In this document: positions 857-26,950 of the stretch, one piece after another
Position numbering within the stretch: position 1 is the first letter of the stretch
Layout: every line of letters starts with the position of its first letter
IMG/VR virus record: IMGVR_UViG_3300050821_003737
Location: 1-33,473 of that record
Reading direction: 5' to 3' (one strand)
Length of the DNA stretch: 33,473 nucleotides
Source: a virus
Made by a program: the position numbers and the translations under genes
The notes under the pieces: model-generated
What the model saw: the letters and a program-made list of their open reading frames with translations, nothing else
What the model was told of the DNA's origin: nothing
Databases searched by the model: none

Positions 857-1129
857 TCAGTCCTTCGTGGCGAGCATGTGCTCATTCGCGGTGATGAATG
901 CACGGATCACATCAGCCGAGCCGAGCAGGCGCTCCCATTGCGAGCGATAGAGCGTGATCGGGAAGCGGCCAAGGCCATAGATGCTAATCGCGCCGGAAGT
1001 GCCAGTGCCATCGGCCTTAGGCGCGGTGACTTTGATCGTGATCTTCCGCTCGCTGGCTTTCTGTGCAGCCATGAGTTGTTCGATCAATTGCTCACGAGTG
1101 AGTTCGTTCAGGTTGCGGAGGATTGCCAT
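857..1129 (-). CDS. conserved small phage protein (YGLGRFPITLYRSQWERLL type)
   Basis: A 90-aa protein starting MAILRNLNELTREQL. The N-terminal ~25 residues form a charged helix, followed by a beta-rich part (KITIKVTAPKADGTG) and a signature YGLGRFPITLYRSQWERLL at about 53-71. I recall this signature from many short proteins of phages and prophages of Gram-negative bacteria, where it has no assigned function. The start is chosen because AAGGAG lies 9 nt upstream of the ATG at 1129 and the sequence turns protein-like only from there; the open frame extends further upstream without a good start. It is the first gene of the leftward block facing the divergent control region. Confidence 0.75.
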   Translation of the reverse strand: MAILRNLNELTREQLIEQLMAAQKASERKITIKVTAPKADGTGTSGAISIYGLGRFPITLYRSQWERLLGSADVIRAFITANEHMLATKD

Positions 1130-1338
1130 GGTGTTGCTCCTTAGTCGCAGATTGGCGTGATTGCCTTGGCGACAATCCCATAATGAGCGCCAATTGTGGC
1201 AAATTCGTGGCGCTTCGATCACAAGGCCGTGATGGTGCGCTGCGATACTGTTGTGCGGTGCGAACGCTGCGAGTGCAATGCAACATCGTTCATTCCATTC
1301 CCTCCCCACGCTTCGTCACAACAAGACCTGCACTCGAC

Positions 1339-1621
1339 ATCCTCATACCATCCTCATACTACCCTCATGTCTCTTCATTGCCTCATTGGCAAAGCCATGT
1401 CGTCCGGTGCCCTCTCCCTCCCTAGTACCGCATCCGTCCCTATCCGGATCGTTCTGGTCCCTTCTGTCCATTTCTGTCTACACATATATACGACAACAGA
1501 CAGAGCAGGCAAGAGGGCAAGGGACAGGACGCATACATGGGGCAGGGGAAGGGACACAGGGCTTGGGGATGCCAATCAGTGAATGAGGATAGAATCGAGG
1601 TAGTATGAGGCAGGTATGAGA
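1339..1621. repeat. large imperfect inverted repeat in divergent control region
   Basis: The 1130-1712 interval has no convincing gene. The reverse complement of 1339-1390 aligns with 1571-1621 over about 50 nt at roughly 75-80% identity by eye, including the shared string GAGG-TAGTATGAGG and the outer GGTATGAG. Both arms are equidistant from a centre near 1480. The inner flanks are pyrimidine-rich to the left and purine-rich to the right, so both outward transcripts would begin with G/A-rich leaders. It separates the leftward and rightward gene blocks. Confidence 0.6.
1473..1504. promoter_or_regulatory. central dyad TCTGTCT-18 nt-AGACAGA around TATATA
   Basis: TCTGTCT at 1473-1479 and AGACAGA at 1498-1504 form a 7-bp inverted repeat around an AT-rich core containing TATATA (1485-1490). 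It is at the symmetry centre of the larger inverted repeat. It could be a regulator site, a bidirectional start region or a melting element; the sequence alone does not decide. Confidence 0.45.
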
Positions 1622-1622
1622 G

Positions 1623-1643
1623 TAACGATAGCGAGAATCGTTA
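1623..1643. promoter_or_regulatory. operator-like 21-bp dyad
   Basis: TAACGAT (1623-1629) and ATCGTTA (1637-1643) form a perfect 7-7-7 dyad. It lies 31 bp upstream of the -35 box at 1675, a plausible place for a phage repressor or activator to bind. No regulator gene in the window can be linked to it. Confidence 0.5.
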
Positions 1644-1674
1644 GTGATTGGGTGCGGAGTGGGGAAATGAACCG

Positions 1675-1703
1675 TTGACTTTGCGAGGGAAATGGTGTAT
1701 GAT
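1675..1703 (+). promoter_or_regulatory. sigma70-type early promoter
   Basis: TTGACT (1675-1680), 17-nt spacer, TATGAT (1698-1703). It is the first rightward promoter after the divergent control region. The expected transcription start near 1710 is only about three bases before the ATG at 1713. Confidence 0.8.
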
Positions 1704-1712
1704 GTAGGGACA

Positions 1713-1871
1713 ATGGAAATCGAGTATGACTCCGGCCCGAGGCTTGGTTGCCAAACACTGGATGGCTTGTATGGACGATACCAGCATGGACTATCACAGC
1801 TTCGAGAGTGGCGGCTCGGCATTCCGCATCACGAAAAATTGATTTGTGTTGCGGTGCAAAATGCGGTATGA
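1713..1871 (+). CDS. small hypothetical protein, possibly leaderless
   Basis: ATG at 1713 opens a 52-codon frame (MEIEYDSGPRLGCQTLDGLY...) ending at TGA 1869-1871. I do not recognise the protein. It contains no membrane segment and is mildly basic in its second half. It is supported by position, immediately after a strong promoter, and by the ATGA overlap with the next ORF. There is no Shine-Dalgarno sequence and almost no 5' leader, so translation would be leaderless. It could instead be an untranslated leader for the downstream ORFs. Confidence 0.45.
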   Translation: MEIEYDSGPRLGCQTLDGLYGRYQHGLSQLREWRLGIPHHEKLICVAVQNAV

Positions 1872-1984
1872 TTACAGCGATGATATCAGCAGGGGCTTGG
1901 ACTATGAGACTAGAACTCGCCTTCATCCTTACCGCAATAGCGCTCGAAGCCTTGCTTTGGGTGCCGATCTTGGGAGATTTCTGA
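1868..1984 (+). CDS. 38-aa membrane peptide
   Basis: Starting at the ATG that overlaps the previous stop (ATGA), this frame encodes MITAMISAGAWTMRLELAFI followed by a hydrophobic stretch LTAIALEALLWVPIL. A single transmembrane helix at about residues 15-35 is likely. The stop overlaps the next start (TGATG), so three tiny genes are chained. Small early membrane peptides in phages often interfere with the host envelope or exclude other phages, but nothing here proves a role. Confidence 0.45.
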   Translation: MITAMISAGAWTMRLELAFILTAIALEALLWVPILGDF

Positions 1985-2199
1985 TGACGCCAAGTGTCAG
2001 AATGGAAGCGATACGTATCGCAAGAGCAATGATAAAGCAAACCATACGAGACATGCTGGCGAGTGCGAATGGCACAAACCTACGTAATCGTAACTCTGCG
2101 AAGCGATGGTTGGTTGCCAAACGCAGGTATCCATATGCCTCGGATCGGCAGATCAATCGGCAACATCGTGAGCGACAGCGGAGTGTAGCCCAAGCCTAA
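1984..2199 (+). CDS. small basic hypothetical protein
   Basis: A 71-aa very basic protein (MTPSVRMEAIRIARAMIKQT...), rich in Arg and Lys, with a helical N-terminal half and a C-terminus full of R, Q and N. GGGAG lies 7 nt before the ATG, which overlaps the previous stop. The basic composition suggests nucleic-acid binding, but no family is recognised. Its stop codon directly abuts the hammerhead ribozyme at 2201, so the ribozyme would cut its mRNA away from the downstream message. Confidence 0.5.
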   Translation: MTPSVRMEAIRIARAMIKQTIRDMLASANGTNLRNRNSAKRWLVAKRRYPYASDRQINRQHRERQRSVAQA

Positions 2200-2200
2200 A

Positions 2201-2254
2201 GGCCGAAAGGGGCATACTCGCCCCTCCACAGGTTAGTCCTGTGCTGATGAGGCC
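2201..2254 (+). ncRNA. hammerhead ribozyme, type II topology
   Basis: All core elements are present in circularly permuted type II order, with stem II open. Stem II is GGCC 2201-2204 paired with GGCC 2251-2254. GAAA is at 2205-2208. Stem III is GGGGC 2209-2213 with GCCCC 2220-2224, loop of 6. U2225 pairs with A2208 and C2226 is the cleavage-site nucleotide. Stem I is CACAGG 2227-2232 with CCTGTG 2238-2243, loop TTAGT. CTGATGA is at 2244-2250. Cleavage is predicted between 2226 and 2227, between the stop at 2199 and the ATG at 2349. A 9-bp direct repeat CCAAGCCTA flanks the element (2190-2198 and 2253-2261). Confidence 0.85.
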
Positions 2255-2348
2255 AAGCCTACAACGCAACGCAAAGTGCTCTCCGCACACGGCAACGCAA
2301 CGTAGCGAGTGCAGATCAGAACCAAGCTACCAGTTACTAGAGGTACCA

Positions 2349-3044
2349 ATGACTGATACAACGGTTGAACCCGACACGGCCGATGCAGGAGTGAAGAAGC
2401 TCCTCACCATCGAAATCCGTGCCAAATGCGGCTCTGTTGACGTGGACGTAGATCAGCTTCCCATCGAAGTGTACGAATACGCTTTGAAGGTAGGCCTCGA
2501 AGCCATCATCAACAAAGTCGGCATGTCCAAGATCGCCACTGGCATCACCAAGCTCACTGGCAAGGAAGCCGAGACCGCCAAGGCCAAGGTCGTCGAGCAA
2601 GCCCAAAAGAACGTAGCCGCTCTCTACGACGGCTCGATCAAGGGGATGCGTTCGGCAACCAAGCGCGCAGGTGTGGTCAACACCGAAGCCATGCGCCTCG
2701 CAAAGGCAATGGTCAAGGAGTTGCTCAGGTCAAACGGCTACAAGATCAGTGCCTTCGATGCCAAGGAACTGACGGCGATGGCCAAGGAAGTCTTGGCGGC
2801 GAACCCAGATATCTACAAGAAGGCCGAGGCCAATCTTGCGGAACGCTCGGCAACGCCGGTCAAGGGCTTTGATCTCAAGAAGATGCTTGGGACCAAGGCT
2901 GACGATGAGTCGTTCAAGGCCAAGCCGAAGGTTCCACCGAAGCCGAAGGCTAAGGGCGAAGGGAAACCGCTGTCAGCGAAGCAAGCGGGCATGGTTGCGC
3001 CGCGGACTAAGCCGACAGAGGGCCACAAGCCGACGGCGCATTAA
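2349..3044 (+). CDS. hypothetical early protein with Lys/Pro-rich tail
   Basis: A 231-aa protein beginning MTDTTVEPDTADAGVKKLL. A short acidic N-terminus is followed by a mixed alpha/beta region (LTIEIRAKCGSVDVDVDQLP), then a long helical Ala/Lys-rich region to about 180, and a C-terminus rich in K and P (KAKPKVPPKPKAKGEGK). No known domain is recognised. The tail looks disordered and suited to binding DNA, RNA or an acidic partner. The ATG at 2349 is chosen over the GTG at 2241 because AGAGGT lies just upstream and the 2241 start would lie inside the ribozyme. The 95-nt leader holds two copies of CAACGCAACG flanking a small hairpin. Confidence 0.7.
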   Translation: MTDTTVEPDTADAGVKKLLTIEIRAKCGSVDVDVDQLPIEVYEYALKVGLEAIINKVGMSKIATGITKLTGKEAETAKAKVVEQAQKNVAALYDGSIKGMRSATKRAGVVNTEAMRLAKAMVKELLRSNGYKISAFDAKELTAMAKEVLAANPDIYKKAEANLAERSATPVKGFDLKKMLGTKADDESFKAKPKVPPKPKAKGEGKPLSAKQAGMVAPRTKPTEGHKPTAH

Positions 3045-3060
3045 GCACATTCAGAAATGC

Positions 3061-3228
3061 CCTAGATCAAAAACGGACGCCATGCCATAACCGCGTATGA
3101 TCTAGGAGAGCTTTGGCGCCGGTAGTGCCAAGCCGGGAGCACCTAATGCTAGAGCGGGTAGCCGCTGACAACAAAAGCATCAAGGCCTCCCGGTTCTTCC
3201 CTTCCTTAAGTGTGGCATCCCTGCCACA
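3061..3228 (+). ncRNA. highly structured 5' leader of unknown class
   Basis: The gap 3045-3246 holds no gene but several nested helices. CCTAGATCA 3061-3069 pairs with TGATCTAGG 3098-3106. CCGGGAG 3133-3139 pairs with CTCCCGG 3187-3193 and encloses CCT 3142-3144/AGG 3183-3185, ATGCT 3146-3150/AGCAT 3176-3180 and AGCGG 3153-3157/CCGCT 3162-3166, the last with a GTAG loop. A separate hairpin TGTGGCA 3211-3217/TGCCACA 3222-3228 lies just before the ribosome-binding site of the 3247 gene. It does not match a ribozyme or riboswitch that I can name. Confidence 0.55.
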
Positions 3229-3246
3229 ATAAATCGGAGAAAAGCC

Positions 3247-3969
3247 ATGACTGGTGAAAAGATTAATTCCTTGGTTGGCGACTTGGTTGCCATGGCAAGG
3301 GCGATGGAACAACAGCCTGAACTTGAACAGCGCATACGTGATCTTGAGAGCAATGCGACAAAGTTAGCGCAGGCCAATGTTGCTCTCGAAGACTCCAACA
3401 ACATCCTCCGCTCCCATATCGACGAACTGAACCTCAAGATCGGGGAGGTGACTCGTGAGCGAGACGATGCTTCCTTTCGCGTCTTGGAGACGGAAGACAA
3501 GGCTGCTCAGGCGCTCGATCTGTGCAAGACTTTGCAGACTGGCTTGGGGCAGGTGATTGCGAAGCTTGAGCCGCCGAAGGCTGAGCCTGTTACCATAGAT
3601 CAATTTGGCTCTGGCTACACGCAGGCGGTTGTAGGCGAAGCCCTACGAAGCCAGCCTGAGGTAAGCGTGTCACAGGACCCTACTACTGCAAGCATACAGG
3701 AACCTATTGGTGGTACTGTGGATTTGCAGAATGCGCCAAGGAACGAAGATGCTTTCTATGGAATGGGTCAGAGTGACCCTCTCCCTACTTCGACGGTCGA
3801 GTCAACGAGTGGCGAGATCGGACAACAGGGCAGTTCTGTAAACGTCCCGCCGCCTAATGGGCCGTATACTGGCAAGCGTTGGTCTGAGCTTCCACAGGAT
3901 CAGCGTTGGGGATTGAGCTATAGCATATGGCTCGACGGTGGAGGCACTTACGAAGGCTGGAACGGCTAA
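3247..3969 (+). CDS. coiled-coil hypothetical protein
   Basis: A 240-aa protein. Residues ~20-110 form a long coiled coil (ELEQRIRDLESNATKLAQAN..., heptads of L/I/V with charged residues), followed by a low-complexity Ser/Thr/Pro/Gln segment (~115-205) and a C-terminal patch YTGKRWSELPQDQRWGLSYS with aromatic residues. No family is recognised; the layout suggests an oligomeric scaffold or adaptor. CGGAG lies 9 nt before the ATG. A strong intrinsic terminator follows, so it ends the first early transcription unit. Confidence 0.7.
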   Translation: MTGEKINSLVGDLVAMARAMEQQPELEQRIRDLESNATKLAQANVALEDSNNILRSHIDELNLKIGEVTRERDDASFRVLETEDKAAQALDLCKTLQTGLGQVIAKLEPPKAEPVTIDQFGSGYTQAVVGEALRSQPEVSVSQDPTTASIQEPIGGTVDLQNAPRNEDAFYGMGQSDPLPTSTVESTSGEIGQQGSSVNVPPPNGPYTGKRWSELPQDQRWGLSYSIWLDGGGTYEGWNG

Positions 3970-3979
3970 CAAACAATCC

Positions 3980-4015
3980 TTGGGGCAGGGCCAAATCGCT
4001 CTGCCCCAACTTTTT
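3980..4015 (+). terminator. Rho-independent terminator
   Basis: TTGGGGCAG (3980-3988) pairs with CTGCCCCAA (4001-4009), followed by CTTTTTG. It comes right after the 3247-3969 gene. Confidence 0.85.
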
Positions 4016-4040
4016 GATTTGGACATTTAGGAGAGAAGTC

Positions 4041-4202
4041 ATGAGCACTAACATAATCATCATAGCCATAAAGCGCCTGAACGAAATACTCAGAGACAAA
4101 ACAATTAGCATGAATGTACGTCATCATGCTCTTAGTGCCAAGATTTCATTGGAGCTATTGAATGAAGCTCTTTGCAATCAGCCCTCACCAGACAACACTT
4201 GA
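4041..4202 (+). CDS. 53-aa hypothetical protein
   Basis: Starts at ATG 4041 behind AGGAGAGAAG and encodes MSTNIIIIAIKRLNEILRDK..., a short, mainly helical protein ending QPSPDNT. No family is recognised. It lies between a terminator and a new promoter whose -35 box overlaps its stop codon, so it may depend on read-through or on a promoter I could not identify. Confidence 0.5.
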   Translation: MSTNIIIIAIKRLNEILRDKTISMNVRHHALSAKISLELLNEALCNQPSPDNT

Positions 4203-4227
4203 CTTTCGCACCTGGAAATGTTATAAT
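4199..4227 (+). promoter_or_regulatory. strong sigma70-type promoter
   Basis: TTGACT (4199-4204), 17-nt spacer, TATAAT (4222-4227). A second TATAAT sits at 4231-4236, then AAGGAG serves as the ribosome-binding site of the 4251 gene. The context TTGACTTTCG and TATAxTAGGTATA is shared with the promoter at 8099. It probably drives the small-gene array. Confidence 0.9.
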
Positions 4228-4250
4228 AGGTATAATAAGGAGATCGTTCG

Positions 4251-4436
4251 ATGGAACACGATTGTAAATTAACCTTAGACACTACTGAGCTTGAATACTA
4301 TCTTGAAACAGGTGAAATGCATCGTGACATGGATAAGTGCTTTGAAACCATGTTAGAGCTTGCACGTAAACGCAACGGCAAAGTGGTTTGCCTATTCACG
4401 GTTCATAAGGCCGAGAATGAGGAGGCTGAAGAATGA
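4251..4436 (+). CDS. 61-aa acidic hypothetical protein
   Basis: First gene after the promoter at 4199, with AAGGAG upstream. The protein MEHDCKLTLDTTELEYYLET... is acidic, with helices and a short beta stretch GKVVCLFTVH near its end. Not recognised. Its stop overlaps the next start (ATGA). Confidence 0.65.
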   Translation: MEHDCKLTLDTTELEYYLETGEMHRDMDKCFETMLELARKRNGKVVCLFTVHKAENEEAEE

Positions 4437-4603
4437 CCGCCTACGCCATCTTCCGCCAATGGTGCCTTGACCACGGCCAAGTCCCTTGCACCGAAGACTT
4501 CTTCCACAAGGCCACGCCACACTACGCGCTTGACGAGCCAGACTTCCGTGCGGATCAGCGAGAGATTGACCGCGAGAGAAGGGAGGGGTGGGCGTATGAC
4601 TGA
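4433..4603 (+). CDS. 56-aa hypothetical protein
   Basis: Starts in an ATGA overlap at 4433. The 56-aa protein MTAYAIFRQWCLDHGQVPCT... is rich in aromatic and charged residues, with no membrane segment and no known motif. GGAGGCTGAAGA upstream supplies the ribosome-binding site. It overlaps the following gene by 8 nt. Confidence 0.6.
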   Translation: MTAYAIFRQWCLDHGQVPCTEDFFHKATPHYALDEPDFRADQREIDRERREGWAYD

Positions 4604-4784
4604 ACGCTATAAGGTTAGCACACGCAACGAAGAAATTGAACATACCTGCTGCTATGATTGTTGCATTGTCGATTTGCATGAGCCTTACAAATATCGACCG
4701 GGCACCTTCACCTGTGTTGCCGAGTTCAAGGAATACGCCCTTGCAGAACAAACCTGCAAGCTGCTGAATGAGGCTCAGCCATGA
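4596..4784 (+). CDS. 62-aa Cys-rich hypothetical protein
   Basis: MTERYKVSTRNEEIEHTCCY... has two closely spaced CC-type pairs (TCCYDCC at 17-23) plus two further cysteines, suggesting a metal-binding or small redox fold. No family is recognised. GGGAGGGG lies upstream of the ATG. It overlaps the genes on both sides, and its end overlaps the next start (ATGA). Confidence 0.6.
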   Translation: MTERYKVSTRNEEIEHTCCYDCCIVDLHEPYKYRPGTFTCVAEFKEYALAEQTCKLLNEAQP

Positions 4785-5248
4785 CCTTCCTCTACCTCTG
4801 CCGCACCGACGGCGATCAATATCGAATGGTCAAGATGACCAGCCTGAGCGAGGTTGAGTCGTCCTATCTCTGTTCAGAGACGCATTGCGAATGTCCGGCA
4901 GGTGTCCGGCCTACCTGCCGCCATCGTGAAATGCTCCCTCGATTCATCCAACGCAACGCAATCAACACCGGCTGGGGATTTGATTATGATCGTGGTGGCT
5001 GGGTGCAGACAGAGTATGGATCAACGGATGAGCCCATCTCTGATCCCTATTCACACTTGCATTTGAGTGATGGCAAGTACAAAGGGCAACACCTTAACAC
5101 TCCAATATACGAAGTAGAGAACATTCAAGAACCAGCCCTCGCGGTGGAATTGGTAGACACAACGGTCTCAAAAACCGTCACTCCTGCGGGTTCGAGTCCC
5201 GCCGAGGGCACCAAACCAAAGGCATTGTTTATCAGGAGGCGTATATGA
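4781..5248 (+). CDS. SWIM-like zinc-finger protein whose frame runs through a tRNA
   Basis: The 155-aa frame carries C36-E-C38-P-A-G...C46-R-H48, a CxC-x7-CxH pattern like a SWIM zinc finger, followed by REMLPRF and an aromatic stretch TGWGFDYDRGGW. I recall short phage proteins with a CPAG...CRHR...MLPRF signature; their role is unknown, possibly nucleic-acid binding. From about residue 119 the frame is the tRNA-Leu sequence read as protein, with no stop until the terminal LFIRRRI. That tail holds the AGGAGG ribosome-binding site of the next gene. Either the tRNA was inserted into the end of the gene, or the frame is open by chance after a lost stop. Confidence 0.65.
   Translation: MTFLYLCRTDGDQYRMVKMTSLSEVESSYLCSETHCECPAGVRPTCRHREMLPRFIQRNAINTGWGFDYDRGGWVQTEYGSTDEPISDPYSHLHLSDGKYKGQHLNTPIYEVENIQEPALAVELVDTTVSKTVTPAGSSPAEGTKPKALFIRRRI
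5135..5213 (+). tRNA. tRNA-Leu, anticodon CAA
   Basis: Acceptor stem GCCCTCG 5135-5141 with CGAGGGC 5203-5209, discriminator A5210 and encoded CCA 5211-5213. Anticodon stem ACGGT 5162-5166/ACCGT 5174-5178 with loop CTCAAAA gives anticodon CAA (5169-5171), reading UUG. T-arm GCGGG/CCCGC with TTCGAGT. The D-arm GGTGGAATTGGTAGACAC is typical of tRNA-Leu. The variable region is only 7 nt (5179-5185), lacking the long variable arm normal for leucine tRNAs. Confidence 0.93.
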
Positions 5249-5439
5249 CAGACATTAAGCTTATCCATAAATCCTCTCGCTATTCCGACAAGATTGTATC
5301 GAGAATGAATACAATTACACGTCAACAGTTCGAAGATTACATTCGTAGTGTTATATTTGATTGCTGGAAAGATGCTTTTGCTGCTGGTTATAGTGCGGCG
5401 TTAAATGCTGGTCCACATAAAGAGGACATGGGAAAATGA
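5245..5439 (+). CDS. 64-aa hypothetical protein
   Basis: ATG at 5245 overlaps the previous stop, with AGGAGG 5 nt before it. The 64-aa protein MTDIKLIHKSSRYSDKIVSR... has a helical centre with aromatic residues (FEDYIRSVIFDCWKDAFAAG) and an Ala-rich end. It is AT-richer than its neighbours. Not recognised. Confidence 0.65.
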   Translation: MTDIKLIHKSSRYSDKIVSRMNTITRQQFEDYIRSVIFDCWKDAFAAGYSAALNAGPHKEDMGK

Positions 5440-5732
5440 CCGCCACCATCGCCAAATCCGCCGCACCCAAGTACGCAGTATTATGCTGGGCAGATGAGCG
5501 CTCCGTCTACGCCGAACTCCCATCCATCAACGGCCCTTACGTCGCATCCTTCGCCCGCTCCGAAGGCGGACTCTCTCAGGCCCTCCAAACTCTCGGCGCA
5601 ATGCACATGGAACACTCCGGCGAACCATACCTGCGACCGGAATTGCCGAGTAAGGTTATGCAAAAGGCTGGGGTAACGTCTAAGGACCTCGACGAGGCTC
5701 GGGTTGTGTTGCGAAAGATGGGTGTGTTGTGA
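5436..5732 (+). CDS. 98-aa hypothetical phage protein
   Basis: Starts in an ATGA overlap. The sequence has a beta-rich N-terminal half (YAVLCWADERSVYAELP...YVASFARSEGGL) followed by helices and a C-terminus DEARVVLRKMGVL. The look is of a small alpha/beta phage protein of unknown function. GC-rich codon use contrasts with the AT-richer gene before it. Its stop overlaps the next ATG. Confidence 0.65.
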   Translation: MTATIAKSAAPKYAVLCWADERSVYAELPSINGPYVASFARSEGGLSQALQTLGAMHMEHSGEPYLRPELPSKVMQKAGVTSKDLDEARVVLRKMGVL

Positions 5733-5815
5733 TGCCCCAAAGCCTCCTAGTCTGGCTCATCCTCATCCTGATCTTCGGCTCCTTCGCCTATTTGGTCCTG
5801 AGCAATGCCCCATGA
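5732..5815 (+). CDS. 27-aa single-span membrane peptide
   Basis: MPQSLLVWLILILIFGSFAY continues with LVLSNAP: almost entirely one hydrophobic helix. The ATG overlaps the previous stop (TGATG) and the frame overlaps the next gene's start by 11 nt, which supports it as a real coupled mini-gene. Role unknown. Confidence 0.5.
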   Translation: MPQSLLVWLILILIFGSFAYLVLSNAP

Positions 5816-6095
5816 TCTCTATTTGATCGCTCACGTAGTCAACGCTCACTCAGACCAGTCCGAGGTCGAGCTTGAGGTCGCATCTCTATCCGCCAACGAC
5901 GCATGGTACACCAACGATGGTCGCCAAGTGTGGCCCTTTTGGTGGCAGCCGATCGAGACAGTACCTGCAATCCCCGAAGGCTGGGTAGAGCACATCCAAG
6001 AGATGGCTGATCATTTCGTTGCCAAACGACCTACGTTCAACATCGCAGTCTTGTTGCCAAAGGCCCAAGTGCCAACCATAAGGAGGCGGATTTGA
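5805..6095 (+). CDS. 96-aa hypothetical protein with IRRRI tail
   Basis: MPHDLYLIAHVVNAHSDQSE... is a small alpha/beta protein with a Trp-rich centre (VWPFWWQPIETVPAIPEGWV) and an N-terminal strand pattern. It ends VPTIRRRI. The last codons, AGG AGG CGG ATT, also form the ribosome-binding site of the next gene. The start at 5805 was preferred; an ATG at 5812 belongs to another frame. Not recognised by family. Confidence 0.65.
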   Translation: MPHDLYLIAHVVNAHSDQSEVELEVASLSANDAWYTNDGRQVWPFWWQPIETVPAIPEGWVEHIQEMADHFVAKRPTFNIAVLLPKAQVPTIRRRI

Positions 6096-6298
6096 AACGC
6101 CCTCGCCCCGACACCCGTCTCTCTTGGCGCGATCCGCAGATGCCAGTGATTCGCGATTACCGCTTCCGCGACGGCCGTGTCATGACCAATGTCGATCCCG
6201 AATACGAACGACGCTATCGAGAAATGCTAGTCTCGGCATCGAACAATCCCAAGTGGGACAAAGACCCAACTTACAACATGAGAAAAAGAAATGTCTGA
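6092..6298 (+). CDS. 68-aa hypothetical phage protein (RPDTRLSWRDPQMPVIRDYR type)
   Basis: TTG start in a TTGA overlap, 5 nt after AGGAGG. The sequence RPDTRLSWRDPQMPVIRDYR followed by VDPEYERRYREM resembles a short protein I recall from other alphaproteobacterial phages, of unknown function. It is strongly basic with many Arg and Tyr. It overlaps the following HNH gene by 8 nt. Confidence 0.6.
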   Translation: MKRPRPDTRLSWRDPQMPVIRDYRFRDGRVMTNVDPEYERRYREMLVSASNNPKWDKDPTYNMRKRNV

Positions 6299-14226: not shown

Positions 14227-14646
14227 ATGCGTGACACAACAGCAGAACCTTTCGATATCGCTCAAACAAGTCTTGCGATCGAAGAGGAGATATCGGCAGT
14301 GCTCCCTAAGCGAACTTCAGGAGCTATACACTCTACTATCCAAAGGCTTAGGGACCAGACGAATATCAAAGATCATGAACCGCGACCGGCGCACGCTGCA
14401 AAATTGGAAGAACCATCCAAGGCCATTGATACTTCGATTGCTGAAGACGCAATCAATCCAAGTCACTACCGAAAGCATCCGTCAGGGATCGAATGCATCG
14501 AAGTCACTCGACATATGAACTTCAATGTTGGGAACGCGATCAAGTATCTCTGGCGGTATATGGACAAGGGGGACCCGGTTGAGAATCTAAAGAAGGCGCA
14601 ATGGTATATTGATGATGAAATTCGCAGGCTTGAAGGTAAGCGATGA
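14227..14646 (+). CDS. DUF3310 family protein
   Basis: The C-terminal half (about residues 77-139) has the DUF3310 pattern: INPSHYRKHPSGIECIEV, then NFNVGNAIKYLWRYMDKGDP and KKAQWYIDDEI. This small domain is common in phage replication regions and is often labelled nucleotide kinase without direct proof. The N-terminal half is a variable extension with a helix-rich, basic sequence (LPKRTSGAIHSTIQRLRDQT). TTGGAG precedes the ATG. It overlaps the UDG-exonuclease gene by 4 nt. Confidence 0.8.
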   Translation: MRDTTAEPFDIAQTSLAIEEEISAVLPKRTSGAIHSTIQRLRDQTNIKDHEPRPAHAAKLEEPSKAIDTSIAEDAINPSHYRKHPSGIECIEVTRHMNFNVGNAIKYLWRYMDKGDPVENLKKAQWYIDDEIRRLEGKR

Positions 14647-15743
14647 AACCAGTAGTGCTCGTCGGCGAGGCAAAAGGCGAGAATGAGGACAAAATAAACT
14701 CTTCGTTCGTCGGCACCACCGGCGCCCTTCTTCTCCAAATGCTCGCCGACGCTTCCGTCATCTCTTGGTCATCCGCCGATCAAGACTTCCTTTCTCAATA
14801 CTGGCGCACCCGCGATCCGCACTCCCTCGACACCATCTGGAAACTCCACCCTGAGGTCTATCGAACCAATGTATTCCAAAAGCACCCACCCGGAAACAAG
14901 CTCGAATGGTTCTGCGGAACCAAAGCCGAGGGCATACCATACTTCCCAGCCTTGCTCAAATCCAAATACGTCCGCAAGGAGTTTCAATCAGAACTGGACC
15001 GGCTCGGAGAAGAGATACTACGGCTTGACCCCAATCTCATTGTATGCCTTGGCAACTCTGCTATGTGGGCTCTTAGCGGCCGCACTGGTGTTACTAAGCT
15101 TCGTGGTACAACCGCGACTTCCACTCACACAGTGTCTGGATACAAGCTGCTCTACACATATCACCCGTCAGCGGTCGGTAGACAGTGGGAGCTAAGGCCG
15201 ACGACGATTATTGATCTTGCGAAGATAAACAAGGAAAAGGAGTATCCGGATGTCAGGAGACCGAGGGTTGAGATTTGGATTGAACCCGACCTACAAGATA
15301 TCGAAACGTTCATATCGCGCTACATCTCCAACAGCCATAAAATCCTTTCTGTCGACATTGAAACGAGCGGACAACAGATTACATGTATCGGCTTCGCTCC
15401 CAGAAAGGACCTTGCTATCGTTATTCCAATCCATGACGAGCGAAAAAAGAATGGATGCTATTGGCCTACTCAAGCAGATGAACGACGATGTTGGGAGCTT
15501 ATACGTTCAGTGCTTGAGGATAAATCAATTATTAAATTGTTCCAGAACGGATTATATGATATCACGTTCCTCGCTAGGTCCTATGGGATAAAAGTTATGG
15601 GGGCCAAACACGATACCATGCTATTAATGCATGCTCTACAACCAGAGGCTCTAAAGGGCTTGGCTTATCTTGGGTCAGTCTTTACCGACCACGGCCCGTG
15701 GAAATCCGAACGCAAAATGGAAACGATTAAGGCAGGATCGTGA
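14643..15743 (+). CDS. uracil-DNA glycosylase domain fused to pol I-type 3'-5' exonuclease (truncated)
   Basis: Residues 1-195 look like a family 4 uracil-DNA glycosylase: GEAKGENE 8-15, NVFQKHPPGN 76-85, LIVCLGNSAM 132-141 and YTYHPSA 171-177. Residues ~210-366 are a DnaQ-like exonuclease of family A polymerases: SVDIETSG with D238 and E240 (Exo I), FQNGLYDITFL with N302 and D306 (Exo II), and KHDTMLLMHAL. Exo III (Y-x3-D) is missing here and lies in the next ORF. The stop overlaps the polymerase GTG start (GTGA). The glycosylase may scan for uracil in phage DNA or be a structural remnant. Confidence 0.85.
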   Translation: MKPVVLVGEAKGENEDKINSSFVGTTGALLLQMLADASVISWSSADQDFLSQYWRTRDPHSLDTIWKLHPEVYRTNVFQKHPPGNKLEWFCGTKAEGIPYFPALLKSKYVRKEFQSELDRLGEEILRLDPNLIVCLGNSAMWALSGRTGVTKLRGTTATSTHTVSGYKLLYTYHPSAVGRQWELRPTTIIDLAKINKEKEYPDVRRPRVEIWIEPDLQDIETFISRYISNSHKILSVDIETSGQQITCIGFAPRKDLAIVIPIHDERKKNGCYWPTQADERRCWELIRSVLEDKSIIKLFQNGLYDITFLARSYGIKVMGAKHDTMLLMHALQPEALKGLAYLGSVFTDHGPWKSERKMETIKAGS

Positions 15744-17263
15744 GGATAGTCAGAACCGATGAAGCATCCCCAAACTCCATACCAGATCAATGGGAGCGAG
15801 ACCAGATTTATAACGGACTGGATTGTGCAGTTACAGCTGAGGTCTTGGATGCTATCCTTCCACAACTGGACAATTATACATCCGAAACGTATGCGTTTTC
15901 GAGAGCTTTGCAAGGTCCCTGTTTGGAAATGCGACTGCGGGGTGTATTGGTTGATCAAGCTCGAAAGGCAGAAGTCATCAGTGAGTATTTTGATAAGGTC
16001 GATCAATTATCCGAGCAGTTGGATCGTATAGTTCTCGAAGGCGTCGGCATGCCTTCGTTCAATTGGCGTTCCAACAAAGACTTGCAGGCCCTATTCTACG
16101 AACATCTTCAGATACCAGTAATCAGAAAACAAGGGAGGCCTACCTGTGACAGAGACGCGCTTGAGCGAATGGAATCGTATTTGGTCGCACGACCTATCGT
16201 CATGCACCTGTCTGCTATGCGAGAGCTTCAGAAGAGAATCGATTTTCTACGAACCGGCATCGACCCCGACGGCCGAGTCCGCACCAGCTACAATATCGCC
16301 GGAACAAATACCGGCCGCTTTAGCTCAAGCTTCAGCGAATTTGGCACTGGCGGAAATCTACAGAACGTGGAGGAAAGCCTTAGAAGCGTGCTCATCGCCG
16401 ATCGAGGGATGAAGTTCGCGAAGTTCGATGCGAAGTCGGGCGAGAGCTATATCGTTGGTGCAATAGAAGGGAACCTTTTCAATGATTGGAGATATTTTGA
16501 TGCGGTCGAATCTGGTGATGTGCATACAGCAGTTGCTAGAATCGTCTGGCCACACCTTGGATGGACAGGTGACCTTAAAAGAGATAAAAATATTGCCGAA
16601 GGGCCATTCTATCGACACTATTCTTATCGTTTCATGTGCAAAAAGCTTGGCCACGGTAGCAATTACGGTGGAAAGCCAACCACCCTCGCCCAACAAGCCA
16701 AGCTCCCAGAGCGGGTCGTTATCGACTTTCAGCCAAAGTACTTCAGAGCTTTTCCTAGTCATATACGATGGCAAGGATGGACCGACGATCAATTACGGCG
16801 AGTTGGTTTCTTGGTTACTCTCACAGGGCGTAAACGTTGGTTTTTCGGACGCCGTACTGAGCCAGCGACCCTTAGAGAAGCAATTGCATATAACCCTCAA
16901 GGGTCTCTAGCGGACATAGTCAATCGTGCCATGCTCCGCATCTGGCGCCAGCGAATCGCTATCGTTATGATGCAGGATCACGACGCCATCACCTTTATGT
17001 ATCCGGAAGAAGCCGAAGATGAAATCATTCCCCAATTACAAAAAGTCTTGGTGGAGGAGATTCCGCTTGAGCACGGTCGAACCTTGTCCATTCCATACGA
17101 TTGCAAAGTAGGATGGAACAAGGGGAACTTCGACTATGACCATCCAGAGATCAACCCAGACGGCCTCAAAGACTACGAAGGTCACGACAAACGGAAGCGC
17201 CAGCCGCAGGTGTCCATCATGGACAGAATTATTACCAGCCCTAAAAGAAGTCTTAGACTATGA
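15740..17263 (+). CDS. family A DNA polymerase, polymerase domain
   Basis: The 507-aa protein begins with the tail of the exonuclease domain (YNGLDCAVT, Exo III Y24/D28) and continues into a pol I-type polymerase: TNTGRFSS 189-196, NLQN 206-209, motif A FDAKSGE with D230, motif B R297-x3-K301-x7-Y309-G310, NPQGSLADI 385-393, and motif C QDHDA with H414/D415. All catalytic residues are present. The GTG start is coupled to the upstream stop, with AAGG 7 nt before it. The last ~14 residues (MDRIITSPKRSLRL) are probably not original but come from the HNH insertion that follows. Confidence 0.9.
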   Translation: MRIVRTDEASPNSIPDQWERDQIYNGLDCAVTAEVLDAILPQLDNYTSETYAFSRALQGPCLEMRLRGVLVDQARKAEVISEYFDKVDQLSEQLDRIVLEGVGMPSFNWRSNKDLQALFYEHLQIPVIRKQGRPTCDRDALERMESYLVARPIVMHLSAMRELQKRIDFLRTGIDPDGRVRTSYNIAGTNTGRFSSSFSEFGTGGNLQNVEESLRSVLIADRGMKFAKFDAKSGESYIVGAIEGNLFNDWRYFDAVESGDVHTAVARIVWPHLGWTGDLKRDKNIAEGPFYRHYSYRFMCKKLGHGSNYGGKPTTLAQQAKLPERVVIDFQPKYFRAFPSHIRWQGWTDDQLRRVGFLVTLTGRKRWFFGRRTEPATLREAIAYNPQGSLADIVNRAMLRIWRQRIAIVMMQDHDAITFMYPEEAEDEIIPQLQKVLVEEIPLEHGRTLSIPYDCKVGWNKGNFDYDHPEINPDGLKDYEGHDKRKRQPQVSIMDRIITSPKRSLRL

Positions 17264-20616: not shown

Positions 20617-21270
20617 CTACAATCCCATTACATGTTTCCAAAGTCCCAACCAATGAACCCTTTCTGAGTATCCATTGATCAGGTTGACGTTGCTTGTATA
20701 GTGCCCAACATTAAGCATGGCTGACACACCAACAACGTCATTTCGTTTCGCGTAAGGTAAGCAGCCACAGAGTACAAAATCTGCAACGCCACATTCTAGC
20801 GCTGTGTCAGGTTGGATCAAAAGATCAGGATGGTTGATCACATCCAATCCAGACTTCTTTGCAAGAGCAATGTAACCGTTCTTGCCTGTGACCTGTGATA
20901 GTCCTTTTCCACGAAAGTTCCATCCATCATCAGACGGAGGAGGAGCATTGCCCATGCGGCCACCATAAGCTCGATCCGCAATGAGCCTTGGCTGGTGTTG
21001 TAATTCAATTGCCTGCGCACGAGTAAAGTGAGTAGGGAATACTTGCAACAAGCGCACAGCAGTATAGTTCATATTCTCTTGCATATCAAGACCTGCACCC
21101 GTTTCCTCAGATGCTTGAGCCATGAAATGAGCGATTGTCAAATCTGAATCAAGTTCATACTTTGGAAAGACCGTCGGTGCTGTCTTTGCCATTCCTTCGA
21201 TCAGCCCTGCTACGGTTACGTTCCTATGAGGCCAAAGCTTCTGTAGCATTTCTAGAGTAAGCATGTTCAA
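20617..21270 (-). CDS. GH19-type endolysin
   Basis: A 217-aa protein with the glycoside hydrolase 19 (chitinase/lysozyme) fold signature: the acid pair E55/E56 in QASEETG, MNYTAVRLLQVFPTHFT, IADRAYGGRMGN and GWNFRGKGLSQVTG (116-129). Phage GH19 proteins cleave peptidoglycan glycan chains at lysis. No signal peptide or membrane segment is present, so a holin is needed for release; a holin-like gene lies just downstream. The first codon is TTG 21270 in a TTGA overlap; ATG 21264 is an alternative. Confidence 0.88.
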   Translation of the reverse strand: MNMLTLEMLQKLWPHRNVTVAGLIEGMAKTAPTVFPKYELDSDLTIAHFMAQASEETGAGLDMQENMNYTAVRLLQVFPTHFTRAQAIELQHQPRLIADRAYGGRMGNAPPPSDDGWNFRGKGLSQVTGKNGYIALAKKSGLDVINHPDLLIQPDTALECGVADFVLCGCLPYAKRNDVVGVSAMLNVGHYTSNVNLINGYSERVHWLGLWKHVMGL

Positions 21271-24104
21271 TGTTTCCTTCTCTGTGCTTCACCATGGGCT
21301 ATGCCCCGCATCCATTCCACAGGCGTCTTTGGTTTCTGCTGACCGGTCATGACATCAGTGCCAAACCTAATCCCCCTTGCGACCGTCTTTGGCATCTTGC
21401 CGGTGATTTCGCCAAAGAGAGTCAGGCCATCTTCGATCGTCTTGCCAGCATGTTCTTTTGTAAAGAACTTCTTTGGATCGCTAACGGCTGATCGAGTGTC
21501 CCTGGCTACGTTTGCCATATCATGCATTGCTGACGATATCAATCCTGCACCGGGATCATGTCCAGTCGTCAGACCATAGACAAGATCACGAAGATACAGA
21601 ACCGAAGATGCCATTCCCATTGTGGCGCCTGCCAACAAGTGTGTACCCCAACCACGACGATCTTCAGTAGTCATGCCTGTGACGGCTTCTTCGATGAGAG
21701 TTGGAAGCACAGCATAGGTCATGAAGTTCTTCAGAAGCTTTGGCATGTTCTTGGCAGCTGCTTTGATCTCTCCTTCGCGACCAAGCTGGTAGATATCATT
21801 AGCCTGATGCATTAGCTCAATACGGCGTTGCATAACTGTGCCAAAGAATCCATAGACCGAAGTTAGGTATCGGTTAAGTGGACCACCTGAACGAACAGCC
21901 GGTGGCATGTTAGTCTCGGCTGTTGAACCATGTGCGAATCTCACATCGCGATCTGCCAAGAACACTGCTGTACCATGTGGCTTGCCTTCTGCTATAGCCT
22001 TCTGATAAGACGCCCACCACATAGGTCGTGCGGAGGACATGTCAGACCATGCGACAGCCTTTGAACCCCAATCGATTATCTGTTCGCGGATCGTTGACTT
22101 GTCACTTAGTTCATTGCCTTGTCCTGCAAGGGTATCTTGCCAATGGCGTTCACGGCGTTGGAGTTCTTCGGAATTATCCATGATGAATTTGATTGTAGGC
22201 TCAGAGCCGGGTCGAGCGAGATCGACGGTTGCTTTGACAAGGGCATCCGCACCGACTCTGGCAGAAGACATAAAGGCAGCCGTCGGTGCGTGCTTAAATA
22301 CCGTGAACGGGTTGAAGCCAATGTAGGTTGAGATGATGTTCTGTCTAGCCTTCTCCAAGAATGATTCGGCCCAGACCATATTCTCAGAACGAATACCCTC
22401 CGATCCCGCAAGCGAACGAAGATAAGGCATCAGTCCTTTAGAGTATTCCCTCCCATAATACTTCGCTACATCTTCTTGGAACAATCGATCAGCGAATATC
22501 TTCTCCGTCGATAATAGCGGCTCCCTGAAATGGATGTCGTGGGCGATTTGACGAAGTCTCGTCGGGATAAAGTTGAAGTCAAGGTTGAGTGGGTAGACGG
22601 CACCGGTTCGCTTCTTCGTGTAGCCATTAGAAGTCGATGCATGAAAGTAATCAGCGTCGCCATAGGCAGACTCCCTTCCTCGGGCAACGACGCGCTCGCG
22701 TTCGCCTGTCTCGGCGTCTTCCTTCCACATCGAAGCACGGATCGGATCGCGATCGAGAGGGTGGTACCAGCCGGGGACAGAGACCTTCTCGCCATCTGCA
22801 AGGGTGAACTCGATCGGCTTCAACGGGACCTTCTCGACTGTGGCACCGGTCAGGCGTTCGTAGACCTTGTCAGACTGCGCGATCAGCTTCTTGAAGATGT
22901 CACCCACATGCTGCGCACGAAGCACGTCGTCTTTGGTCACATTCTTTTGTAACCAATTGAACAAGGCTTCTGGCTCGGCACCGTAGCCCTTCGACAGCAC
23001 CGTCCAATTCGACTTGTTCCCAGCATTCTGCAACATCATCAAGACGTTGCCACGGTTGAAGCCGGTCCATTCGCCTTGTCCACCGGGCGTGGATGGGTCG
23101 GGGAAGGGAGCTTCGACTAGCTTACCAAGTTCACCTTTGGAAGGACGATCTATCTTGTCTAAGTCCTTTGCGATCTCCCGCAACAATCTAGATTTGCCAT
23201 TAGCGGCTTCAACAAGAGGACGGATTATAGCTTGGTTAAACACGCCCATAGGATCGTTGCGATCCCAGCGGTTGAGAAGGGTCTCTATATTCGTCAAGCC
23301 GAAGGCCATCTTCCTCAGAAGACTGAACTTCGTATTGGCCTCCATCTTGCTTCGATCATAACCAAAGGTCGCCAGCTTCTCAACCATCTCATGCTTGGTC
23401 TTCGCAAGGTCCCAATTCTCACCCTGTACATTGATCGACTTCTCGTCCCGCCCAGCCTTCTCAAGTATCTTGATCCCTTGCTTCAACCCCTCGAAATCAT
23501 GCACCGACAACTCATCTACCGGCGTTCTAAAATCCGGATCACGAAGGAAATCAGGCACATCCAACTGACGCATGCCCATAAAATGGGCCTCTTTAGCATC
23601 AATGAAAGCAGCCAGATTAGTCTCGCTCTGACGGCCGATGTTCTCAGCAAGGTCCCGAACAGAACGGGCGAGAGAATGGCCAGTGCGAAGGAGGATGTCT
23701 TGAATCCAATTGACATATTCCTGGTCTACCGATGCGACAGTTCGGTTCTTTGAGAAGGTCTTGGCGGTGCGGTCGAATTGAGCGCGGGACTTTTCGTAAG
23801 CGCGAGCGAGCTTGGCAGCGATTACAGTGTGGTTGCGCTGTTGCGAGAGCCGATAGGCCTCGCCCCAATCACCCTTGGCACCGGCTTCTTCGATCTTCTT
23901 GCCGATGGTGCCTGCCTTGGACATGAGGATGTCGGACGAGATAGAGCCAACGATGCGACTATCAAAGTCAGCCTTGACCATCTCACGGACTTCGTCTTTG
24001 GTGAACTGAGGTTCTTGACCGGCCTTCAAGGCATAGGCCAAAGTCTCTTCATGGACAAGGTTGAGGGCTGTCTCCGACAGGGCCTGATCCTTTGCCTCAT
24101 CCAA
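21267..24104 (-). CDS. C-terminal part of giant internal virion protein (gp16-like position)
   Basis: An open frame of 945 codons, mostly long amphipathic helices, with hydrophobic segments in the last third (FMTYAVLPTLIEEAVTG, HLLAGATMGMASSVLYL). Order in the late block, size and composition fit the DNA-ejection/internal core protein that sits before the endolysin in this phage. It has only a TTG start without a ribosome-binding site, and overlaps the 24026-26950 frame by 79 nt. Reading through with a -1 shift gives one protein of about 1,894 residues, so this is probably the second part of one gene. Confidence 0.75.
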   Translation of the reverse strand: MDEAKDQALSETALNLVHEETLAYALKAGQEPQFTKDEVREMVKADFDSRIVGSISSDILMSKAGTIGKKIEEAGAKGDWGEAYRLSQQRNHTVIAAKLARAYEKSRAQFDRTAKTFSKNRTVASVDQEYVNWIQDILLRTGHSLARSVRDLAENIGRQSETNLAAFIDAKEAHFMGMRQLDVPDFLRDPDFRTPVDELSVHDFEGLKQGIKILEKAGRDEKSINVQGENWDLAKTKHEMVEKLATFGYDRSKMEANTKFSLLRKMAFGLTNIETLLNRWDRNDPMGVFNQAIIRPLVEAANGKSRLLREIAKDLDKIDRPSKGELGKLVEAPFPDPSTPGGQGEWTGFNRGNVLMMLQNAGNKSNWTVLSKGYGAEPEALFNWLQKNVTKDDVLRAQHVGDIFKKLIAQSDKVYERLTGATVEKVPLKPIEFTLADGEKVSVPGWYHPLDRDPIRASMWKEDAETGERERVVARGRESAYGDADYFHASTSNGYTKKRTGAVYPLNLDFNFIPTRLRQIAHDIHFREPLLSTEKIFADRLFQEDVAKYYGREYSKGLMPYLRSLAGSEGIRSENMVWAESFLEKARQNIISTYIGFNPFTVFKHAPTAAFMSSARVGADALVKATVDLARPGSEPTIKFIMDNSEELQRRERHWQDTLAGQGNELSDKSTIREQIIDWGSKAVAWSDMSSARPMWWASYQKAIAEGKPHGTAVFLADRDVRFAHGSTAETNMPPAVRSGGPLNRYLTSVYGFFGTVMQRRIELMHQANDIYQLGREGEIKAAAKNMPKLLKNFMTYAVLPTLIEEAVTGMTTEDRRGWGTHLLAGATMGMASSVLYLRDLVYGLTTGHDPGAGLISSAMHDMANVARDTRSAVSDPKKFFTKEHAGKTIEDGLTLFGEITGKMPKTVARGIRFGTDVMTGQQKPKTPVEWMRGIAHGEAQRRKH

Positions 24105-26950
24105 GATCGACTGCTCTCGGTTGCCAAACTCTTGATTAAGCTTCGATCGGTTTCGATGTCGATGAGTCGATTGAGGTAGTCGCGAGAGGACATGCCACTT
24201 CGCACTCGGTCTTCAGTCAGCATCGTCAACCGTTCCACAAGAGCATCGCCGGTGGTGTAGCCAAAGTATCCAGCGAGGTCGTCAGGGTTGACCCCGTTCT
24301 TCTTTTGAATATAATCCTTTGGCAACCGGCTTCGCTGTTCTTCAGTCAGGTACTTGGGATCGATCTTGATTTTATCCGTGGTCATAATCTGATCGATAGC
24401 AATGTCGGGACGCTGTTCAATGCTCTCGCGGACTTCATCTCGAAGCTGGGTTCGGCGTTCCTTCCATTCCTTGTTCGATCGTCGTCGCTGCCGAACCTCG
24501 GCACGACGCTGAGCGGCTTCGAGGTCTTCGTTGTTCTTCTTATCGATCAGTTTCTGCATTCGCTCCATGTGGGCTTGAGTAACCCCAAGGGCTTTACCAC
24601 GATCGTAGAGGCCGTCGTCGACTGGTTGGGCTGCGATCTCGCCTTCAGCACCTTCAGCTTCTGGAAGCTCTCTCCTTCCAATCTCTCCCGAATCCACCTT
24701 CTGGAATATCTCTTCCCAAGAGAGATCGTGACCAAACAGTTCTTTGATTTGTGAACGAAGCCCTTCCAAGAACTGCTTGAACCTCTCGAAGAGCCCATGC
24801 ACTTCCTTAGGCATATCATTGCCACGTGCCCAATCAAGATAGGCTTCGGCGATTGATTCTTCGGTGAGCTTAACACCTTTGCCGCCGGCCCAACGCTCTT
24901 CGATGTTGTATTTCTTCACCCAATCAAGATCAACCGAGGCCTTCTGTAAGGTGGCCCATTCCTTATCCGAGAACAGACCAAGGTCCTTCAAAGCATGTAT
25001 GGCCTCATGCCTTGCGGTACCGATCGGATCAGTGGCTCGCAGCGATACCAAGATTTGACGGAAGTTGGGAACGTAGGCTCCGTGTAATTCGCCGAAGGCC
25101 CTTGCATGAAGGCCATGTGCCACATCAGCTTCGGCATCAGGCACGATACGAGCTAGTTCGTGCATTACCATTTGGCCAACAAGCGAATCCGCAGCGACGC
25201 CTTTGCCTTCTTCATGGAACAGACCAAAGAGGCCTTTGTGAATCTCCTCCCAATTCTGCGTCAGCAATTGCTTGAAATCTTCATGGGTCTTGAGATCAAT
25301 TGACTCTTCGCCGGGCTGAACCTTAATCCAAACATCCCTCTCAGTCCCAGCCTTCTCTCTCGCGCCTGAGATACGGAAGCCGCCGATCTGTTCTACTTGT
25401 GGGTAGGCATCCTTAATTTGCCTAATCAATGATCGTGTAAGAGCAGGGCCAAAGCTATTAGGACCATAACCAAGAGACTCAAAGCCACCGATGTTATCTA
25501 CATAAACCTTCTTCCCTCCTTCATATGGTGTGGTCTCGAGCCATCCAACTTTCTTTCCTGATTCGTCGAATATATGAAATTCATCAGCGCTAACTACACC
25601 GGTCTCAGAACTAATCTTACCTCGTCTTTGGCCAATGGTCAACTTCCGATCCCCAACCTGAAACATTGGCTCGAGCCCAGCCGAGCCACGGACGGCTTGA
25701 AGGGGTTCGGGGATTACTTCTTTGGCAACCGGCTCTGGATGCAACTGCCCTTCAACAACACCTTCTTTATCTGGCCCAACCTTCGTATCATTAATCGTCA
25801 GCCCACCATCTCTCACCCTCACATCATCATGCAATTCCTTCGCGACTTCTGGATCAACCTTTGCCAACCAATCCTTCAAAGGTACTCGAACATCATCTCC
25901 AACTGGCGACGTAAGTCTTTCAGCCAAGCCCGGAACCCAGCCAAGGATGCCATCGTCGGGGGCTGGGACTTTGTCTCCGTAGAGGCGACGGATGGCGTCT
26001 GCGTCGATCCCGATCTCTCGGTTGCCGATGTGGGACTCGATGAACTTGGCAAACATCTCTGGCGACCGCTCTCGGGTCTGGGATGCTTGAGCGGATCGAG
26101 TAAGTTCTTTGAGAGCATCACCATCTTCCTTAGCTTGGATTTTGTGTGCTTCGTCTAGGAGCGGGTTGATGTTCGCAGGCGGCTCCTTGCCTTCAACGGT
26201 GTAGATATCAGAGGTCTTGATAGCTTCAGAGGCCTTGCGAATTTGGGAAGCTAACTGTTCATTGATAGCAATACCAGTTCGAGACCCTCCACCACCAGCA
26301 CCCACTCCCATATCACCGCGCATCATTTGATGCTCAGCCATCGCAGCCATTTCTCTAGCGAACTTCTCACCAAAGACTTGTGACATACCTTCGTAACCGA
26401 GACGGAGGATGCCTGAGGTGGTGCGGCCGATTAACTCGCCAGCGAAGGCTGGGACTGAGGCAGCGGATGCGATCAAGGGATGAGAGATAGCAAATTCAAC
26501 ATCGTCAGGCCGCGAGAAAGCGGTACGGCCAACAGGCTGATCGCCGAAGCCTTCCATGAATGTCTCGGCAACGCTATCGCTCTTGAGCCATTGACCAAGA
26601 CGAGTGTCTTTATAAAACGACCCAAGATGCTCACTAACTTCATCCAGCTGTGCCAAGTCATCATGCGACACCGCCGCAGCCATAGGATGGCCAGTCAGAT
26701 AATCCTGAAGGAACTTATTATCCGCTGACAGCTTCGTATTGACCGCAACCCTTTGCTGCTTCTCAAAGCCTTCAAGGTCAGAATGGATCAAGACAGGATT
26801 GACGCCGGTTGCGGAACCAAGGTTCACGGCCTTAGCAGCATCCTCCGGATCATCATCGACAGCATTCACCAACGCGCCTGCGGCTTGGCGTCGTTGCGAA
26901 TCCTCTAAGTAGCGAGGGTCAAAAGGATCGTTGGTGTAGGTGTCGGTCAC
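24026..26950 (-). CDS. N-terminal part of giant internal virion protein with zincin-like peptidase motif
   Basis: A 974-codon frame starting at GTG 26950 in a GTGA overlap. Residues ~1-200 are helical, with a Gly-rich linker at ~215-225. An alpha/beta segment (452-545, VSADEFHIFDESGKKVGWLE ... GYGPNSFGPALTRSLIRQIK) resembles an acetyltransferase-like fold. ARHEAIHAL at 646-654 is an HExxH zincin motif, with a downstream acidic EESIAEAY as possible third ligand. This is the mosaic build of large phage polyvalent proteins. The last ~30 residues (from about RSLIKSLATESS) are out of character and mark the likely frame break near 24143. Confidence 0.78.
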   Translation of the reverse strand: MTDTYTNDPFDPRYLEDSQRRQAAGALVNAVDDDPEDAAKAVNLGSATGVNPVLIHSDLEGFEKQQRVAVNTKLSADNKFLQDYLTGHPMAAAVSHDDLAQLDEVSEHLGSFYKDTRLGQWLKSDSVAETFMEGFGDQPVGRTAFSRPDDVEFAISHPLIASAASVPAFAGELIGRTTSGILRLGYEGMSQVFGEKFAREMAAMAEHQMMRGDMGVGAGGGGSRTGIAINEQLASQIRKASEAIKTSDIYTVEGKEPPANINPLLDEAHKIQAKEDGDALKELTRSAQASQTRERSPEMFAKFIESHIGNREIGIDADAIRRLYGDKVPAPDDGILGWVPGLAERLTSPVGDDVRVPLKDWLAKVDPEVAKELHDDVRVRDGGLTINDTKVGPDKEGVVEGQLHPEPVAKEVIPEPLQAVRGSAGLEPMFQVGDRKLTIGQRRGKISSETGVVSADEFHIFDESGKKVGWLETTPYEGGKKVYVDNIGGFESLGYGPNSFGPALTRSLIRQIKDAYPQVEQIGGFRISGAREKAGTERDVWIKVQPGEESIDLKTHEDFKQLLTQNWEEIHKGLFGLFHEEGKGVAADSLVGQMVMHELARIVPDAEADVAHGLHARAFGELHGAYVPNFRQILVSLRATDPIGTARHEAIHALKDLGLFSDKEWATLQKASVDLDWVKKYNIEERWAGGKGVKLTEESIAEAYLDWARGNDMPKEVHGLFERFKQFLEGLRSQIKELFGHDLSWEEIFQKVDSGEIGRRELPEAEGAEGEIAAQPVDDGLYDRGKALGVTQAHMERMQKLIDKKNNEDLEAAQRRAEVRQRRRSNKEWKERRTQLRDEVRESIEQRPDIAIDQIMTTDKIKIDPKYLTEEQRSRLPKDYIQKKNGVNPDDLAGYFGYTTGDALVERLTMLTEDRVRSGMSSRDYLNRLIDIETDRSLIKSLATESSRSWMRQRIRPCRRQPSTLSMKRLWPMP

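Follow-up and report, generated by a model that had tools for sequence, protein, structure and literature searches.

What does a hammerhead ribozyme do between two early genes of a phage? The question is raised by the IMG/VR virus record IMGVR_UViG_3300050821_003737, of which we analyzed positions 1 to 33,473 (33,473 nt, hereafter the window). A preliminary description had placed a complete type II hammerhead at 2201-2254, between two cistrons of the early (replication) gene region. Both points were borne out: every element was found in its place, the site was matched by an independent covariance model, and the surrounding genes are early genes. The features of the region are as follows.

1675..1703, + strand: sigma-70-like promoter TTGACT-17-TATGAT ahead of the rightward genes; weak, since shuffles give 1.3 such sites per region
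1984..2199, + strand: small upstream gene, 71 aa, its ATG following a GGGAG; the TAA stop at 2197-2199 leaves a single base before stem II
2190..2198, + strand: direct repeat copy 1, CCAAGCCTA, overlapping the upstream stop codon
2200, + strand: A directly 5' of stem II, candidate tertiary partner of U2233, as conservation suggests
2201..2254, + strand: complete type II hammerhead ribozyme, from pattern, core and covariance model
2201..2204, + strand: stem II, 5' strand GGCC, partner 2251-2254, from the pattern
2205..2208, + strand: core GAAA; A2208 pairs with U2225
2209..2224, + strand: stem III hairpin GGGGC-AUACUC-GCCCC, arms 2209-2213 and 2220-2224
2225..2226, + strand: U16.1 and C17, with the cut predicted after C2226 by homology to hammerhead chemistry
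2227..2243, + strand: stem I hairpin CACAGG-UUAGU-CCUGUG, arms 2227-2232 and 2238-2243
2233, + strand: U, first loop nucleotide of stem I, invariant among family copies
2244..2250, + strand: core CUGAUGA, from the pattern
2251..2254, + strand: stem II, 3' strand GGCC, from the pattern
2253..2261, + strand: direct repeat copy 2, CCAAGCCTA, beginning inside stem II
2255..2348, + strand: leader between ribozyme and ATG, 94 nt, with motif CAGAACC
2349..3044, + strand: downstream gene P0001, 231 aa, with homologues in related phages

The stems of the window hammerhead measured 4, 5+1 (the added pair being A2208-U2225) and 6 bp with zero mismatches, and CUGANGA, GAAA and the UH at the cut were all present. 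The GAAA corresponds to G12, A13, A14 and A15.1 in the standard hammerhead numbering. Stems I and III were closed by loops and stem II was open, the arrangement that defines type II. The descriptor GGCCGAAA..UC..CUGAUGAGGCC matched the window once and none of 100 shuffles. A covariance model trained on 21 other viral hammerheads, with the window copy left out, scored this copy at 61.6 bits (E 1.8e-17). A second match of the model in the window, at 25116-25138 (10.8 bits, E 0.31), was taken as chance.

A covariance check with the Rfam type II model, which had been proposed at the outset, was negative for the site although the motif is real. The hammerhead was reported neither in an Rfam scan of the whole window at gathering scores (37 bits for RF02276), nor in a permissive scan of 1900-2700 with E up to 10, nor in a direct RF02276 search. 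As a sole test, the Rfam scan was misleading here. Among 20 ribozyme-bearing loci, RF02276 passed three sites, all in locus L003; stem II has 2 bp in the RF02276 consensus, compared with 4 bp in the copies studied here. By these results, most of this phage subclass seems to escape the Rfam type II model.

The motif had been called uncommon, which was not supported: at least 119 stretches in IMG/VR matched the descriptor, although a minority of them are chance or imperfect matches. A finder open to other stem II sequences yielded 136 copies, or 116 once near-identical ones were removed. A slightly stricter pattern, run over 257 billion bases from bacteria and archaea, matched 40 stretches; only about half of these scored above 35 bits with the model, and the others about 30 bits or less. 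When 111 distinct core matches were picked without any pairing requirement, stems I and III both had at least 4 bp in 84 of them, against a mean of 0.05 for shuffled interiors. The 21 homologues had 100% paired cells and 88 two-sided changes, and shuffles never reached either value. Because these homologues came from a finder that demanded paired stems, the unselected test carries more weight. The core is surrounded by three helices, and these covary among relatives.

In 2011, Perreault et al. reported type II hammerheads on the flanks of prophage genes (PMC3088659), and the window ribozyme is a further member of that class. Closed stems I and III, an open stem II and the catalytic core are identical to those of the type II hammerheads of PMC3088659 and RF02276, and the bacterial or prophage setting with several copies flanking genes is also shared. 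The copies studied here differ in a 4-bp stem II, a 6-bp stem I, a loop starting with U and an A before stem II. Stem-loop I was 17 nt long in 101 of 116 copies, and its first loop nucleotide was U in all 101. The A directly before stem II was present in 115 of 116 copies; it was also kept in 58 of the 59 copies that have no nearby stop codon, and it is therefore more than the end of a stop codon. The two nucleotides resemble the conserved reverse Hoogsteen contact of types I and III (PMC6155905), whereas the strand order here is that of type II. From conservation only, we infer that the subclass may use an A-U tertiary contact between the loop U and the A beside stem II, as types I and III do.

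In the common type II form, loop I pairs with the 3' tail of stem II in a Watson-Crick pseudoknot of four or more pairs (PMC3088659). In contrast to that report, loop I and 3' tail among the 116 copies were no more complementary than shuffled loop and tail partners, and in the window copy they form 3 bp at most. This pseudoknot was rejected for the family. Loop I and the 5' flank could form 4 bp or more in 17 copies, where 10.5 were expected; 27 of 1000 shuffles reached this number, which makes it a weak excess at most.

We examined 38 related records found via the helicase, many of them partial. Six carried hammerheads, eight copies in all, including an identical pair of copies in each of L147 and L153; the other 32 had none, and the ribozyme is thus dispensable. 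P0001 had no PHROG match, and homologues with 31-59% identity were found in 25 related phage loci. The gap between ribozyme and P0001 homologue was 89-92 nt in L126, L129 and L146, close to the 94 nt of the window, 60 nt in L147 and 420 nt in L144. The leader motif CAGAACC was common to the window, L129, L146 and L123. Among related phages, also at the shared junction, the stems had changed yet were still paired: stem II at the same site in L129 is GACC/GGTC, a compensatory change relative to the window. Stem II of L144 reads GGTC/GACC, and one additional T follows the core there. A lack of covarying helices in related phages had been named in advance as evidence against the ribozyme; such helices were present. 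The upstream gene of L146, homologous to that of the window (34% over 59 aa), ends inside the ribozyme, before the cut.

No named relative of the ribozyme region was found at the DNA level, and the best listed matches of the helicase and tail protein in named phages were only about 26-33% identical. The right-going side of the genome encodes the helicase, an exonuclease, a Sak4-like protein, a DNA polymerase in two ORFs and a primase, and the opposite strand encodes tail, internal virion and endolysin-like proteins. The polymerase is split over the adjacent ORFs 14643-15743 and 15740-17263, which match successive parts of the same PHROG. Two large ORFs at 21267-26950 on the minus strand match successive parts of PHROG 9880, a pattern that would fit a single very large protein that has been split or frameshifted. 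The early region also holds a tRNA-Leu (CAA) gene at 5135-5213, and tRNAs were seen in L123 and L137 as well. Between P0001 and the next gene, 3045-3246 folds much better than shuffles (z -3.0) and had no match in Rfam.

The position of the family relative to reading frames was determined from the longest nearby ORF (50 codons or more) for every copy, with random positions on the same contigs as controls. The upstream stop codon ended between -3 and +1 nt relative to stem II in 57 of 116 copies, compared with 1.3% of control positions, figures that depend on a simple ORF rule, related sequences and sampling by a GGCC stem II. In 23 of the 57 stop-adjacent copies a TA stands directly before stem II, whose first G then also completes a TAG. 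The next start codon usually lay within about 40 nt 3' of the ribozyme, mostly with a Shine-Dalgarno-like stretch, and by this crude ORF rule the longest ORF extended past the cut in 12 of 116 copies.

Whole records contained up to 11 copies (G001); G006 had eight, including a weak one of 28 bits. At locus L204 of Singulisphaera sp. GP187 (1110-6216), seven hammerheads are spread over about 5.1 kb of a single strand. Five of them begin no more than a base away from the stop codon of the upstream gene, and one of the seven has an altered core, CTAATGA. Two of the L204 hammerhead sequences recur in IMG/VR loci L046 and L091, which indicates that L204 is probably a provirus. The L204 hammerheads sit between small genes, mostly of unknown function. 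The main text of PMC3088659 does not mention stop codons. A stop codon at stem II in about half of the copies, the missing pseudoknot signal and the serial arrays go beyond the 2011 description.

We favor the reading, with a probability of roughly 70%, that this is a genuine type II hammerhead that cuts the early transcript and so separates the mRNAs of its cistrons. The observed basis is the motif, its covariation, its conserved position, the stop-codon placement and the repeated use at consecutive gene junctions; from this we infer cleavage, its timing and its effect on mRNA fate. The rightward early transcript would be cut at 2226/2227, probably during transcription. As the preliminary description had it, this cut falls between the stop TAA at 2197-2199 and the next ATG at 2349, and both positions are correct. 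Cleavage would part the message of the small upstream gene, which ends at 2199, from a message starting with P0001. The stem III hairpin would close off the upstream piece, leaving a 2',3'-cyclic phosphate 27 nt past the stop codon. On the downstream piece, a 5'-hydroxyl would sit right on the stem I hairpin; that this piece would start with a hairpin, which might protect it, had been proposed before, and the hairpin itself follows from the type II layout. The resulting mRNAs would then decay and be translated independently.

PMC6155905 counts the role of bacterial and phage hammerheads among the field's open questions. Already in 2011, multi-copy type II hammerheads in phages were proposed to divide long transcripts into shorter mRNAs (PMC3088659), and our evidence fits this proposal. 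It is sharpened here in that the ribozyme lies where the upstream cistron ends, and with the type II order there is a hairpin on either side of the predicted cut. Cleavage in vitro has been published for tandem bacterial hammerheads, and for the A. tumefaciens ones in E. coli as well; in a halovirus, a transcript end was mapped at most 3 nt from a hammerhead cut (PMC3088659). That hammerhead, HHphage of haloviruses HF1/HF2, likewise precedes a gene, here within a lytic virus's early region, and has its transcript end mapped near the cut, whereas it is a hammerhead variant in an archaeal virus, 13 nt upstream of the start of a helicase, a different downstream gene.

The isolated 67-nt stretch folds as the hammerhead secondary structure (-26.4 kcal/mol, z -2.6). 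Once at least 10 nt of flank are included, the window copy gives up stem II in its minimum-energy fold for local hairpins of the CCAAGCCTA repeat, and stem II was retained in only 42 of 116 copies folded with 30-nt flanks; activity would therefore depend on kinetics or tertiary contacts. These folds, together with a stop codon that abuts or overlaps stem II far above chance, are consistent with a translation-coupled switch, in which a genuine ribozyme serves mainly for regulation, a terminating ribosome covers stem II, cleavage reports upstream translation and the repeat hairpins are the off state. We consider such a switch unlikely, because the repeats that form the alternative hairpins are not a family feature and compact phage gene packing alone could set a ribozyme against a stop codon.

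Several relatives that lack the hammerhead carry a different, conserved hairpin, X1, before the P0001 homologue, where the ribozyme sits elsewhere in the lineage. X1 has a conserved asymmetric C/UA internal loop, changing stems and an outer helix of the CUnACG/CGUnAG type, and was located as follows.

L121, 5865-5910: X1, by descriptor
L123, 3513-3560: X1, by descriptor
L127, 4673-4720: X1, by descriptor
L137 and L140: X1, by descriptor
L139: X1, by eye

X1 of L121 had no meaningful match in Rfam, and one strict X1 pattern searched across IMG/VR matched in its own lineage only. No locus was seen with hammerhead and X1 together before P0001, the numbers being too small for significance. X1 could belong to the leader or be a further processing element. 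A small hairpin of the form CGUGCAAUCCCGCACGA also recurs before P0001 homologues in L124, L131, L144, L148, L149 and L151. L126 (hammerhead) and L123 (X1) share both neighboring genes, their upstream genes being 55% identical over 53 aa, and common leader motifs continue downstream of either module. The region could accordingly be mainly a structured leader, acting for example in antitermination or P0001 translation, with the ribozyme as one interchangeable module. This seems quite improbable, as it leaves unexplained both the retention of a complete catalytic core and the presence of the same ribozyme at unrelated junctions of other phages.

An old hammerhead that survived by chance, decayed or neutral and with little or no activity in vivo, would agree with its absence from most related phages, a stem II that is weak in context and the changed core of one L204 copy. 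The window copy has perfect core and stems, and compensatory changes separate carriers whose P0001 is only about 33-49% identical to that of the window, which makes a passenger very unlikely.

The 9-bp direct repeat at 2190-2198 and 2253-2261 is real, and it had been taken as a hint of insertion or mobility. As the repeat is no family feature, mobility is not supported: flank repeats of at least 8 bp occurred in 1 of 116 copies, with about 0.7 expected, and none surrounded the L126, L129 or L146 copies. Since the second repeat copy starts inside stem II, it is not a clean target-site duplication, and such a duplication was rejected. A mobile element, inserted with this duplication or moving as an RNA-derived unit, is hardly credible even with near-identical copies and shared flanks within the single phages L003, L031 and L115, as the junction is unchanged over long divergence.

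Separation of cistron mRNAs thus remains our preferred reading. More broadly, and doubtfully, the widespread phage type II subclass might be a standard gene separator, composed of stop codon, ribozyme, ribosome-binding site and start codon and repeated along operons, with a placement locked to translation termination so that cutting would await or depend on the terminating ribosome; in the window's lineage, the slot can hold X1 instead, perhaps an unrecognized RNA element of equivalent role and possibly a new ribozyme. The subclass is perhaps under-annotated in viral genomes, as the Rfam model seems to miss most of it. The stop placement, the conserved junction and the serial arrays lead to specific, testable predictions on mRNA ends.
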